A stretch of DNA of 64,000 nucleotides from Bacteroidota bacterium (GTDB lineage Bacteria > Bacteroidota > Bacteroidia > NS11-12g > UBA955). How positions within the stretch are numbered: the stretch's first letter is position 1; every line of letters starts with the position of its first letter. The position numbers and the translations under genes are program-made. Shown in pieces: positions 54,303-58,791 of the stretch. The notes under the pieces were generated by a model, which had not been told where the DNA came from, made no database searches, and saw only the letters and a list, made by a program, of their open reading frames with translations. The stretch lies in the NCBI GenBank assembly GCA_947496065.1, contig CANMBF010000004.1, positions 1 to 64,000 of the forward strand, read 5' to 3'.

Positions 54303-54622
54303 GTTTGTTTTATAGGCCTATATTTGTTATTTGCTAAATAAGCTAATAGATTACCTGTCTTTTCTATCAGCGGTAGTTTGCTTTTCGTATTACATATTGT
54401 TGGGTATGTCTATTCCATTTGTTTAAGAGCATAAAACCTTAATTTTATGAAAATAATAAGCACTCAAATAGTCTCCAATACACGCTGAAACAGATAGATT
54501 AGAGAAGTTTTTAAAGTGAAACCTTCTCTAATAAATAAGTTAGTGGTAATGTTGTAAAACAAAACGGTAAAGAAAAGAAACATATTTTAATTTAAATTTA
54601 ACTTACACAAAACGATAAAATT
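54303..54622. other. Intergenic region between dnaJ and the aldolase gene
   Basis: No gene is seen in 320 bases. A 9-bp stem TTAGAGAAG (54499-54507) and CTTCTCTAA (54523-54531), extended by TTT/AAA, is the main structure and may end transcription or regulate the aldolase gene, though it has no T run. Confidence 0.55.
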
Positions 54623-55663
54623 ATGAATAAAGGATTTGCAAGTGATAATTATGCAGGTGTACTGCCTGAAATGCTTAAAGCAATAGTAGAAGCAAATAAA
54701 CTGCATCAAAAATCTTATGGATATGATGAATTTACAAAATTAGCAAAGCAAGAATTTGAAAACCATTTTGGCGAAAATCTTGATGTTACCTTTGTATTTA
54801 ATGGTACAGGAGCAAATGTTTTGGGTATTGGAAATGTAACTCAATCCTTTAATGCTGTGCTTTGTGCAGACACATCACATTTATGCGTTGATGAATCAAC
54901 TGCTCCAGAAACTTTCACTGGTTGTAGATATATTCCATTGAAAACAAATGAATTTGGAAAAATAGATGCTGAAACAATTTCAAATGCAATTATTAGGAAA
55001 AATGATGAACATTACCCACAAATAAAAGTATTATCGCTGACTCAACCCACAGAATACGGAACTTTATATACCTTGCAAGAGCTTAAAGAAATAAATAAAA
55101 TACTCAAAGAACATGATATTGTTTTTCATATGGATGGTGCTAGAATTTTCAACGCAATCGTAAGTTTAGGATGTACTTTAAAAGAAATGTCAAAAGATGT
55201 AGGCGTAGATGTACTCTCGGTAGGAGGTACAAAAGTTGGACTTTTGTATGGTGAGGCTATCGTATTTTTTAACAAATCTTTGTCTCAAAATTTAAAATTT
55301 AGACAGAAACAAAGTATGCAACTACCTTCAAAAATGCGATTTATTTCAGCGCAATTTCATCATCTCCTTAAAGATGAACTTTGGAAGAAATCAGCAGCAC
55401 ATGCCAATGAAATGGCAACAAGATTGTACAATGGCGTAAAGGATATTGAAAATATAAAGATAACCAAACCTGTTCAAGCAAATGCTGTATTTGTAGAAAT
55501 TCCAAGTGAATGGAATGAAACACTAATGAAAGTAAGTCCTTTTTATGTATGGAATGAAAATACAAATGAAGTGCGTTGGATGACAGCTTTTGATACTAAT
55601 GAAACTGAAGTTGATAATTTTGTGGAAATAATTAAGACTCTTAAAATAAACAGATACGATTAA
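54623..55663 (+). CDS. Low-specificity L-threonine aldolase-like PLP enzyme
   Basis: The enzyme cleaves threonine or allo-threonine to glycine and acetaldehyde. The 346-residue protein has fold-type I features: a start FASDNYAGVLPEMLKAIVEAN, NGTGANVLGIG, then SLTQPTEYGTLYTLQELKEI, the Asp-Ala-Arg pair in FHMDGARIFNA, and the PLP Lys in VLSVGGTKVGLLYGEA. It lies alone, and its codon use looks a little more AT-rich than its neighbours, which fits a mobile region but is not proof. Confidence 0.93.
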   Translation: MNKGFASDNYAGVLPEMLKAIVEANKLHQKSYGYDEFTKLAKQEFENHFGENLDVTFVFNGTGANVLGIGNVTQSFNAVLCADTSHLCVDESTAPETFTGCRYIPLKTNEFGKIDAETISNAIIRKNDEHYPQIKVLSLTQPTEYGTLYTLQELKEINKILKEHDIVFHMDGARIFNAIVSLGCTLKEMSKDVGVDVLSVGGTKVGLLYGEAIVFFNKSLSQNLKFRQKQSMQLPSKMRFISAQFHHLLKDELWKKSAAHANEMATRLYNGVKDIENIKITKPVQANAVFVEIPSEWNETLMKVSPFYVWNENTNEVRWMTAFDTNETEVDNFVEIIKTLKINRYD

Positions 55664-55783
55664 AATGAAACTTTAAGAATGTTTAATCGTGTAAAGAAAA
55701 AACACTACCACAAACAGCCGTTTCACGAAATTGCGGGGTTTGGAATTTATCAGAATTGATAATTTATGAATCTATATTTTGTC

Positions 55784-55791
55784 TATATTTG
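55784..55791 (+). promoter_or_regulatory. -7 box for the 55840 gene
   Basis: TATATTTG is an exact match upstream of both possible starts (GTG 55801 and ATG 55840). Confidence 0.5.
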
Positions 55792-55839
55792 TAATCAATA
55801 GTGTTGAAAATTAACAACTTATTGAAGCGTCGACACGTT

Positions 55840-56349
55840 ATGCCCAAGCTTAAAATGACTACATATTTAACCGTAAGCATTCTAACAGTTTTGTTTGCCC
55901 TTTCAGCAAAAGGACAAATTAACGACAACGACAAACGACAACAAGTTTTAGAAAAAGGAATCGTTGACAGTTTATTTATTTATGGAAAATGGACTGAAGG
56001 AGGACAAACCGAAACGCATTTGAAATATTTGGGACAAGTGACGACCGCAGACGGACGAATTTTTAAGATTATGAATTCTTGCTGGTTTTGGGGCCTTTCG
56101 CATCGAGCGACAAGTTGGATATTAATTTTTAACGACAAAAATGAATACGTTGGAAATTATGGATTAGCAATGACTTGTGACCTGCCGGACAAATTAGAAA
56201 ACGGAAAACTGATTTTTGCGAATAATGATAATGAAGACTGCGATAAAAAACTTATAACGAAAATAAACTTTACGAAAGTACTTCCAAAAGAAATAGTTAT
56301 CAAATGCAAAAACGAATATTGCGCCAGTTACCCATTTTCAGTAGAATAA
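55840..56349 (+). CDS. Small secreted protein of unknown function
   Basis: The preferred ATG at 55840 gives MPKLKMTTYLTVSILTVLFA and a cleavage after SAKGQ; a GTG at 55801 is an alternative. The mature 143 residues contain GKWTEGGQTETHLKYLGQV, FKIMNSCWFWGLSHRATSWI and a final cysteine group EDCDKKLIT ... KCKNEYCASY. No family recognised. It is followed at once by a chain of large palindromes and lacks any relation to its neighbours, which is typical of accessory or cassette-borne genes. Confidence 0.72.
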   Translation: MPKLKMTTYLTVSILTVLFALSAKGQINDNDKRQQVLEKGIVDSLFIYGKWTEGGQTETHLKYLGQVTTADGRIFKIMNSCWFWGLSHRATSWILIFNDKNEYVGNYGLAMTCDLPDKLENGKLIFANNDNEDCDKKLITKINFTKVLPKEIVIKCKNEYCASYPFSVE

Positions 56350-56380
56350 AGAAATTTTTTGTATCCTACAGGCTACACGC

Positions 56381-56468
56381 AATGTGCAATTTGTGCAACC
56401 TGCAAATACAATTTGAAAGGTTCGCTTCGCGCAAATTATTTTGTATTTGCAACATAGTTCAGCACATT
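56381..56468. repeat. Large nested palindrome
   Basis: Outer arms AATGTGC (56381-56387) and GCACATT (56462-56468) enclose TGCAAATACAA (56401-56411) and TTGTATTTGCA (56441-56451), a perfect 11-bp pair, and an inner CGC-TTC-GCG. The design is that of a long single-strand hairpin with unpaired blocks. Confidence 0.7.
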
Positions 56469-56541
56469 TAATAAAGGGTTTCGGTTAAGGCAGTTTTGTG
56501 GCTTTTAAGCCGCACTGCTTGTAACCTTTAAAACGTTAAAT
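56466..56541. repeat. attC-like palindrome, first
   Basis: Terminal boxes ATTTAAT (56466-56472) and GTTAAAT (56535-56541) are complementary but for one base; the latter fits the integron R' form GTTRRRY. Inside, GGTT/AACC, then AAGGCAGT against ACTGCTT with one extra G on the left arm, and GTGGCTT against AAGCCGC, form one stem. An extrahelical base in an otherwise paired stem is a feature of attC sites. Confidence 0.5.
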
Positions 56542-56645
56542 CAAACATTAGACTTAATGTAGAACAAAGTTCAAATATCCTGAAAATTAAAGATATGTCT
56601 AATTATATACAGGTATTAATGAAAAGGAATTCTTAAGAACGATTG

Positions 56646-56767
56646 CTAACAAAGGGCTTGCCGAAAGCGACCAATGTATTCGACTAAACTTGCGTTAACT
56701 TACGTATCTTTGGATTTTCGGGACGGCTTTGGAAGTCGCCTTCGCAAGCCCTCTGAACGAACGTTAG
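56646..56767. repeat. attC-like palindrome, second
   Basis: Boxes CTAAC (56646-56650) and GTTAG (56763-56767) flank an 8-bp perfect pair GGGCTTGC (56654-56661) and GCAAGCCC (56744-56751). Going inward there is an unpaired C62, then GAA/TTC, one A-C mismatch and GCGAC/GTCGC. The right end GAACGTTAG and the total of 122 bases fall in the attC size range. The loop is about 60 bases and not coding. No integrase gene is in this window. Confidence 0.55.
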
Positions 56768-56831
56768 AAGCCATGCTAAAATTTAGCGGTAACAGATAGT
56801 TCAAGTCTCAAAAACAAACTTTGCAATTGAA

Positions 56832-58259
56832 ATGAAAAACAAAACGAAGGAAGAACTCATCATTGAGTTGATGGAATTACGACAAAAGAACATTTCTTTA
56901 AAGTCTTTAAAAGATAAGCACGTAGCTGAATTGAGCAATGCGGATAAAAATCTTGCGTTTCAAAACAGAGAGAAAGAAAAGCGGGCAGATGAGTTGGGTC
57001 TGGCTAACAAAGAACTCGCCTTTCAAAACGAGGAGAAAGAAAAGCGGGCAGATGAATTAATCATAGCGAATAAAGAACTTGCCTATCAAAATGAGCAAAA
57101 AGAAAAACGTTTAGCTGAATTGGTCCTTGCGGATAAAGAACTTGTTTTTCAAAATAGAGAGAAAGAAAAGCGGGCAGATGAGTTAGGTCTTGCCAATAAA
57201 GAACTCGCCTTTCAAAACGAGGAGAAAGAAAAGCGGGCAGATGAATTAATCATAGCGAATAAAGAACTTGCCTACCAAAATGAGCAGAAAGAAAAACGTT
57301 TAGCTGAATTGATTATAGCGGATAAAGAACTTGTTTTTCAAAGCAGAGAGAAAGAGAAGCGGGCAGATGAATTAATCATTGCGAATAGAGAACTGGCCTA
57401 CCAAAATGAGCAGAAAGAGAAACGGGCAGATGAATTAATTATTGCAAATAAAGAACTTGCCTACGAAAACGAACAGAAAGAAAAACGGGCGGCAGAACTT
57501 GTAATCATCAACAATGAACTTCATCAATTAATTCAATTAAACAAAGACAAAGACAAATTCTTCTCGATCATTGCGCATGATCTGAGAGCCCCGTTCAATG
57601 CTATTGTTGGTATTGGTGAAATTCTCAAAGCACAGATCAGGAAAAAGGAGTTTGAAGAGATTGAGGAGCTTGCCAATATGATATCTCAGTCGTCTAATAA
57701 GGCAATGGATTTGTTGATGAGCCTAATGGCATGGGCGCAATCGCAATCCGGCAGAATGGACTTTAAAATGGAATACTTCAATATAGTAACCCTTATTGAC
57801 GAAGTGACGTTTTTATTTATTGACATAACAAAGCAAAAACGTATCCTCGTTTCATGTTCATTGCCTCAAAGTATTCAGGTAAATGCTGATAAAGAAATGA
57901 TAAGTACAGTATTGAGAAATTTGATTTCAAATGCTATAAAATTTACACAGCCTGAAGGAAAGATTGTCGTTTCATTAGTGGCCAAACAAGACGAATTAAT
58001 TTTTTCCGTAAGCGATACGGGCGTTGGGATATCAAAAGCGGGAATCGATAAATTATTTAAAATAAGTACTAGTTTTTCGACACCGGGTACGCTCAATGAA
58101 AAGGGATCAGGATTGGGTTTGGTTCTCTGCAAAGAGTTTATAGAAAAAAACAAAGGAAAAATTTGGGTGGATGATAGGGTTGGAATCGGGACGACAATTT
58201 GCTTTTCATTGCCATTAAATATGGAGGGTGGACTAGGTATTGATGAATCAAAGCCATGA
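56832..58259 (+). CDS. Soluble histidine kinase with long 21-residue-repeat coiled coil
   Basis: The 475-residue kinase has no membrane helix and no recognisable sensor domain. Residues 32-219 are nine copies of a 21-residue repeat of the type ADELIIANKELAYQNEQKEKR, a continuous coiled coil. The kinase core follows: H box FFSIIAHDLRAPFNAIVG (His249), N box TVLRNLISNAIKFTQPEG, G1 FSVSDTGVGI and G2 GSGLGLVLCKEFIE. No response regulator or sensor partner is adjacent, so it is an orphan; a -7-like box AAACTTTG is 12 bases upstream. The repeat part is very similar to that seen in other Bacteroidota kinases. Confidence 0.93.
   Translation: MKNKTKEELIIELMELRQKNISLKSLKDKHVAELSNADKNLAFQNREKEKRADELGLANKELAFQNEEKEKRADELIIANKELAYQNEQKEKRLAELVLADKELVFQNREKEKRADELGLANKELAFQNEEKEKRADELIIANKELAYQNEQKEKRLAELIIADKELVFQSREKEKRADELIIANRELAYQNEQKEKRADELIIANKELAYENEQKEKRAAELVIINNELHQLIQLNKDKDKFFSIIAHDLRAPFNAIVGIGEILKAQIRKKEFEEIEELANMISQSSNKAMDLLMSLMAWAQSQSGRMDFKMEYFNIVTLIDEVTFLFIDITKQKRILVSCSLPQSIQVNADKEMISTVLRNLISNAIKFTQPEGKIVVSLVAKQDELIFSVSDTGVGISKAGIDKLFKISTSFSTPGTLNEKGSGLGLVLCKEFIEKNKGKIWVDDRVGIGTTICFSLPLNMEGGLGIDESKP
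56925..57488 (+). repeat. In-frame 63-bp tandem repeat in the histidine kinase
   Basis: Nine 63-bp units encode residues 32-219 (three heptads per unit). Units 2-4 (56985-57173) and 5-7 (57174-57362) are almost identical to each other in sequence and order, which shows a 189-bp duplication on top of the 63-bp period. Copy number may vary between strains. Confidence 0.9.
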
Positions 58260-58440
58260 TTTCTTAGGAATAGAATTTGATTTTTTAATAAACGTACAGC
58301 TGGCAAATGATTGAGTTTTCCAAAAAACCGCCATCGCAAAGCCGCATTCTGATGAATCGGTAGTTACTTTTCACATTTTTTTTATTCAATGATGCGCAAT
58401 TTTAAATAGCGTAATTTCATCTAGCATTAAGCGCTAAGCA

Positions 58441-58791
58441 TCAAGCTTCTGTGCCGTATGGTTTTTCCATCACCAAATAACAGCCATACAAGGCAACTAA
58501 AGCCGATGCACTAGTAAGTATATACATCAAAAATCCGCGAAATGCTGGAATTAAATCGACTATGGTTAATACGCAGGCGATTAATCCAACAAAACCGCCC
58601 ATGCCCATCAAAAGCCAACCAAGACTGCATCGTTTCGTTAAACGGTAAAGGACGTATTGGTCCCAAAGTGTTATAATGTCTTCGGCATTTAAACCTTGAT
58701 TTTCTAATTCCGCCATCGCTAATGATTTTGAAATTTTGTTTTGCTGCCACCTTCGGAACAGCATTTCAGTATTTGTATACATTGGTACCAT
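58441..58791 (-). CDS. Small membrane protein of unknown function
   Basis: The 116-residue protein has a soluble N-terminal helical part (MLFRRWQQNKISKSLAMAEL, then ENQGLNAEDIITLWDQYVLY) and two membrane helices (WLLMGMGGFVGLIACVLTIV and GFLMYILTSASALVALYGCY). No family recognised. The start could be either Met 1 or Met 4. It lies between the kinase and the efflux operon terminator. Confidence 0.65.
   Translation of the reverse strand: MVPMYTNTEMLFRRWQQNKISKSLAMAELENQGLNAEDIITLWDQYVLYRLTKRCSLGWLLMGMGGFVGLIACVLTIVDLIPAFRGFLMYILTSASALVALYGCYLVMEKPYGTEA

Follow-up and report, generated by a model that had tools for sequence, protein, structure and literature searches.

A probable decayed cassette recombination site points to an integron-like system in the Bacteroidota

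Results

An inserted block of cassette-like genes lies between dnaJ and efflux genes

The window that we analysed, a stretch of 64,000 nucleotides from a Bacteroidota genome (contig CANMBF010000004.1, positions 1 to 64,000), carries an inserted block of ~4.1 kb (54310-58457) between dnaJ and the orf116/efflux genes, as determined computationally by tblastn and blastn of the flanks against relatives. In three relatives (G006, G004 and G014), whose DnaJ proteins are 93-97% identical, the block is absent and dnaJ adjoins the efflux genes; the order of the flanking genes has thus changed, as it should around the mobile site that was predicted here. The genes, sites and cassette start of the block given below lie on the forward strand.

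A gene for a beta-eliminating lyase of the threonine aldolase type (54623-55663; Pfam PF01212) stands between a candidate cassette start, GTTAGTGGTAATGTTG (54539-54554), and an attC-like site, S1 (55707-55845). That start is complementary to the R'' of S1, pairing at 13 of 15 scored positions, which 2 of 1000 control 16-mers do equally; the threonine aldolase gene is, judged by this pairing, a cassette that S1 closes. Another genus carries a five-site array in which one well-preserved site is 77% identical to S1. The GTT of S1 (55837-55839) opens the next cassette, whose ATG follows directly and whose ORF (55840-56349), assigned to no Pfam family, encodes a small secreted or lipoprotein-like protein with a 70% homologue in a different context in another genus. 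A short perfect hairpin with equal spacers, ATTAGAGAAG..CTTCTCTAAT (54487-54541), stops right where the threonine aldolase cassette begins; it may be a terminator or a trace of the place of first insertion.

Downstream of the lipoprotein-like gene we recognised two tentative sites by eye. S2 (56397-56459; inverted repeat I14), a probable degenerate site without an R2 match (R2 being the covariance model described below), reads AAC c TGCAAATACAA .. TTGTATTTGCA acata GTT and has the 4-nt spacer asymmetry of the family. S3 (56468-56537), ending AAAACGTTAAAT, is a possible degenerate site. A histidine kinase gene (56832-58259; Pfam HisKA and HATPase_c), which is inside the block and absent here in relatives, is probably the last cassette; it is followed by S5 (58327-58353), the remnant of a site right arm, ACCGCCATCGCAAAGCCGCATTCTGAT, which agrees with the family right arm at 20 of 27 positions and is the only such position in the window on either strand. 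The start of the kinase gene (56832-57500) encodes many near-identical ~20-residue repeats (ELIIANKELAYQNEQKEKRAD), probably a coiled coil, and similar repeats are present in G008 and G066.

The palindrome S4 is more than a chance hairpin

Upstream of the kinase gene the original prediction had placed an attC-like palindrome, bounded by the boxes CTAAC and GTTAG. We find these boxes at 56646-56650 and 56763-56767, within a site, S4, spanning 56642-56771, in which AAC occupies 56648-56650 and GTT 56763-56765, with GAAC duplicated ahead of the GTT. The stem is laid out essentially as predicted, save that its outer block is of 9 bp and not 8: the left side runs AGGGCTTGC, an extra C, GAA, an A.C mismatch and GCGAC, and the right side opposite it runs GTCGC, C, TTC and GCAAGCCCT. 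S4 was the sole site that the prediction noted; the higher-scoring S1 had been missed.

With a score of 27.2, S4 was the sole match of at least 18 in the window in a search for AAC, a stem and ACGTT, and the reversed-sequence control gave zero such matches of at least 22 (the reversed background overcounts ACGTT and is left out as a rate). The expectation of copies elsewhere was borne out by one in the same genome, on contig C6 (83% over 115 nt; own-genome site counts are those derived from searches), and by four diverged copies in the genus, all in differing gene contexts. Because S4 is the best such hairpin in the window, and has copies in different contexts, the palindrome is clearly real and more than a product of chance. 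We rejected the folding z-score alone as a proof of S4, as it was indecisive: with DNA parameters 11 of 200 shuffles equalled the top strand in stability, and 1 of 200 was as stable as the bottom strand with RNA parameters.

We refer to S4, its C6 copy and the genus copies as type A sites. For S4, complementarity between cassette start and end, taken from the best matches within 5 kb on either side, is at background level only. The sister type A sites (C6, G011 and G014) have candidate cassette partners at 8-9 of 11 scored positions, where random controls over 5 kb reach at least 8 of 11 in 22% of cases and at least 9 of 11 in 3%. Type A as a class is therefore probably a cassette site, on modest evidence, and the S4 copy looks inactive, its cassette signature having apparently been lost. 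A tRNA gene search found none, and neither a DNA similarity search in plasmids and phages nor a search for the exact pattern in viral contigs gave a match, so there is no known plasmid or phage carrier.

The C6 array, in the same genome, comprises three cassettes with the full signature and a fourth, ending in the type A site, with a partial one; it reaches the contig end, so that its head may be missing, and no recombinase was found in the assembly. Since no recombinase was found in the source genome (G000), the most fitting description of the window block is that of a cassette cluster in decay and lacking an integrase. Further strong sites in this genome are at G000:C39:26622-26757 and G000:C29:2885-3020; as the former is less than 1 kb away from a contig end, the cassette content of the genome has probably been underestimated.

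S4 is related to a family of sites found across the phylum

A covariance model of the type A sites (R1) gave two weak but well-placed matches (L034 and L035) in other species of the genus; the hairpin matched there is related to type A and led to the main site family. This related hairpin was seen again across the taxonomic family and order. Weak R1 matches at L033 and L038, both within coding sequence, were discarded as chance. From 11 of the related-hairpin sites, with zero type A sites among them, we built a second model, R2. In its stem 98.2% of cells are paired, both sides have changed in 12 of 17 inner-arm pairs, and the covariation score is 0.542, versus 0.115 for shuffles and 0.025-0.088 with the partners slid; the family stem is strongly backed by covariation. 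R2 matches S4 weakly but at full length (23.1 bits, E 0.03), three other type A sites at 22.4-27.9 bits, and S1, the stronger site of the window, at 48.7 bits (E 4e-8).

R2 matches occur in 48 of 59 relatives, with up to 32 in one genome, and in 100 of 198 genomes (60 of 103 genera) sampled across the phylum, numbers that undercount distant sites, as the model was trained on relatives of the source genome. Many of the genomes are draft assemblies and arrays are often at contig ends. A longer site subtype (L066 518-700 and 689-806, L163 3086-3239, L164 16571-16703) carries GTCAAACTGTCTAA-like sequence in its right arm; here R2 is out of register at the GTT end, which lowers the cassette-signature score for some pairs.

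The sites delimit cassettes in co-oriented arrays

The family sites form tandem arrays, all on one strand. A typical cassette has one ORF and one near-palindromic site of ~124 nt; the median length is 713 bp, and the longest ORF lies on the array strand in 81 of 86. GTT is constant, and the bases following it vary freely with the cassette (for example GTTATAGGG and GTTACCTGC). In an integron cassette, the start and the R'' of its own terminal site meet in the free circle, and are complementary. Testing neighbouring sites, we found that at least 5 of the 9 bases after GTT match in 42 of 51 pairs (mean 6.3), compared with a mean of 3.4 for shuffled pairs (sd 0.17, maximum 4.1) and 3.1 for same-site controls; in the genome_contigs loci the figures were 57 of 63 pairs and a mean of 6.9, versus 3.4 when shuffled. 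Within a cassette, the start and the terminal R'' are thus complementary, as in integrons.

This bears on whether S4 might instead be a dispersed repeat, MITE-like or another single-strand-folded element, that spreads as a hairpin and not as gene cassettes. A short palindrome with diverged copies in differing contexts would suit such an element, but start/end complementarity marks out a mobile unit that takes in the gene between two sites, and the arrays, whose sites share one orientation, lie downstream of a recombinase. We regard a dispersed repeat as very unlikely.

When the circular sites were reconstituted from cassette start and end (n=86), the outer arm measured 15 bp and the inner arm 20 bp, with a conserved C.A mismatch at position 10 of the former (86%) and a conserved A.C mismatch at position 14 of the latter (89%); the arms are separated by spacers of 1 nt and 5 nt, which amounts to a 4-nt bulge. 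Since these 86 sites were picked for their start/end match, part of the outer-arm pairing near GTT follows from the selection itself, in which positions 12-14 played no role. The arms are ungapped at offset 4 in 114 of 163 sites, and in 18 of 23 in another set.

On the bottom strand the conserved mismatches become G.T pairs. The original prediction had pointed to bottom-strand folding as a check, and we found the bottom strand to be stabler in 78 of the 86 sites (mean -30.7 versus -26.1 kcal/mol, p 4e-14), a bias that control windows did not show; the conserved A.C mismatches favour bottom-strand folding. The same observation weighs on a reading of S4 as a hairpin that serves the flanking genes as a transcription terminator or regulator. 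S4 is intergenic, near a gene start and moderately stable as RNA, as such a hairpin would be; nevertheless the strand favoured by the family's conserved mismatches is the opposite of the mRNA, the sister copies precede unrelated genes, and an Rfam search of the window gave no match. A terminator or regulatory role is in our judgement scarcely credible.

A recombinase and an attI-like site head the arrays

At the head of the arrays is a tyrosine recombinase of ~350 aa, which scores above the NF040815 cut-off. Among the relatives, 11 of 12 recombinase loci with downstream sites give a clear start for the first cassette, predicted from the R'' of the first site, and these 11 starts lie 97-166 nt after the recombinase stop (L079 gives none). 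The same arrangement repeats in 80 recombinase loci from other, mostly named, genomes: 97 of 99 sites are downstream of the recombinase and share its strand, even though the search covered twice as much DNA upstream; sites are present in 30 of the 41 loci having at least 2 kb downstream; and most first-cassette starts are ~70-170 nt past the stop. Across the phylum sample, sites occur in 61 of 69 genomes with the recombinase versus 39 of 129 without it (p 8e-16, uncorrected for relatedness), these 39 having sites yet no recombinase match at 1e-50.

We compared 31 attI-like junctions, chosen by distance to the stop and hand-copied. They share TATA at -9 to -6 (28-30 of 31 at each position) and an A at -1 before the GTT (30 of 31), so that the motif TATAWAYRA|GTT after the recombinase stop is a putative attI analogue. 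One genome, G063, contains two copies of the recombinase with this motif that are 98.95% identical over 1241 bp (L147 4871-6111 and L161 7015-8254) and that part just after the GTT into different first cassettes; the presence of this module twice suggests that the platform itself may be mobile.

By alignment, the recombinase has 20 residues where VchIntIA has about 63, and about 43 residues of IntI1 are absent in 12 of 12 aligned recombinases. Its N-terminal ~70 residues matched no Pfam family and form a candidate domain for recognising the bulge of the sites. An AlphaFold model gave a pLDDT of 84 and a pTM of 0.54, with domain packing uncertain, so we used only its fold class; a Foldseek search with this predicted model ranked XerA and VchIntIA first. 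The recombinase family also occurs outside the Bacteroidota, in L219 (Halonatronum saccharophilum), L235 and L237 (Nitrospirae MAGs) and L169 (an Ignavibacteria MAG); in L219 and L169 the recombinase gene is also followed by an attI-like start, 103-107 nt past the stop, and by an R2 site.

Discussion

Integrons are the textbook case of gene capture on folded single-stranded DNA, and the system described here, as read from its sequences, is integron-like on every layout point tested, with a recombinase of another type. Shared with integrons, such as those of class 1 and the chromosomal ones of Vibrio, are a tyrosine recombinase beside an attI-like site; cassettes that hold about one ORF each and stand in tandem on one strand; near-palindromic sites with AAC and GTT ends; an R'' complementary to the cassette's own start; an asymmetric, unpaired central spacer (here 1 and 5 nt); and a better-folding bottom strand. 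In contrast, the Bacteroidota recombinase is without the IntI-specific insertion, and its gene is oriented as the array, with the attI-like site past its 3′ end. The sites mostly lack single extrahelical bases (type A sites have one extra base), do not have GTTRRRY, and are distinguished by a 15-bp outer arm, the 4-nt spacer asymmetry and the conserved A.C mismatches. In canonical attC sites, two or three single bases of the R''-L'' arm are extrahelical and the central spacer is unpaired (PMC2727003). The IntI-specific domain, near patch III, has been described as a defining feature (PMC9668308), and the insertion is not fully conserved inside the integron-like subgroup (PMC8138268).

Thus the original prediction of attC architecture holds in that S4 belongs to attC-like folded sites with cassettes, but the R' box, extrahelical bases and integrase depart from the integron definition, and with the recombinase insertion, extrahelical bases and R' box all differing we have not filed the system as a canonical integron, despite its integron-like layout. 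Its suggestion of an integrase-less cassette cluster in the Bacteroidota proved apt, given the cassettes, a second array in the genome and the empty site in relatives. Like CALINs, the window block and the C6 array are rows of cassettes without a recombinase in the assembly, but their sites are not canonical attC. With Xer/XerA (NF040815) the Bacteroidota recombinase shares a score above the cut-off, and its nearest solved relatives are XerA and VchIntIA; it differs in its extra N-terminal ~70 aa and in heading cassette arrays.

Could these nevertheless be the products of an ordinary integron or CALIN, in which a normal IntI, encoded elsewhere or since lost, moved canonical attC sites? The AAC/GTT folded sites, tandem cassettes, attI-like site and complementarity of R'' to the cassette start would all agree with this. 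However, no IntI (TIGR02249) scored above the model cut-off in 97 relatives (TIGR02249 matches every genome including controls, never above cut-off, so that sub-threshold matches are uninformative), and the recombinase linked to the arrays has no IntI-specific insertion. The sites, moreover, mostly have no single extrahelical bases, and they have another spacer geometry and an R' box that is not GTTRRRY, and R2 matched nothing in two class 1 integron loci with attC sites. We consider an ordinary integron unlikely.

We propose that S4 is, very probably, a cassette recombination site that has decayed, and that the integron-like system to which it belongs occurs across the Bacteroidota. The intact system consists of the ~350-aa recombinase gene, an attI-like site ~100 nt past its stop, and then tandem same-strand cassettes. 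Excision as a circle would complete the site, whose bottom strand would fold with a 15-bp outer arm, a 20-bp inner arm and the 4-nt bulge; the linked recombinase would then join this folded strand at the GTT to attI or to other sites, and such joining could add, remove or shuffle cassettes. The sequences themselves show the structure, the cassette unit, the attI position, the linkage of recombinase and array, and the insertion in the source genome; from them we infer the circular form, the bottom-strand recombination, the catalysis by the linked recombinase and the crossover at GTT. The array that was inserted in the window between dnaJ and the efflux genes is a small one (threonine aldolase, lipoprotein and probably histidine kinase), and its sites, S4 included, have decayed.

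More broadly, we think it likely that the Bacteroidota, with relatives in Ignavibacteria, Nitrospirae and Halonatronum records, hold a second kind of integron, in which a Xer-like recombinase without the IntI insertion would recombine folded single strands, reading the 4-nt bulge and a wobble-coded strand polarity and not extrahelical bases. Such a system would be common in the phylum (sites occur in about half of the sampled genomes), and may have escaped notice because the tools for detection depend on IntI and canonical attC. Integrons are reportedly almost lacking in the Bacteroidota: IntegronFinder 2.0 (PMC9024848) reports that only In0 had previously been detected in Bacteroidetes, and adds one complete Salinibacter integron. 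Our search of the open-access literature (subscription journals and preprints being outside its scope) found no description of the present system, which provisionally appears to be undescribed so far.

In a phylum that ranks among the most abundant of bacteria, a large gene-shuffling machinery may therefore have gone unnoticed. If our proposal is true, folded-strand capture works without the IntI-specific domain that has been described as necessary, and the site anatomy directly predicts what sets strand polarity. The compact recombination sites would lend themselves to tool building; and Flavobacterium, Chitinophaga, Pedobacter, Algoriphagus and their relatives would hold a large, unexamined pool of mobile cassette genes.
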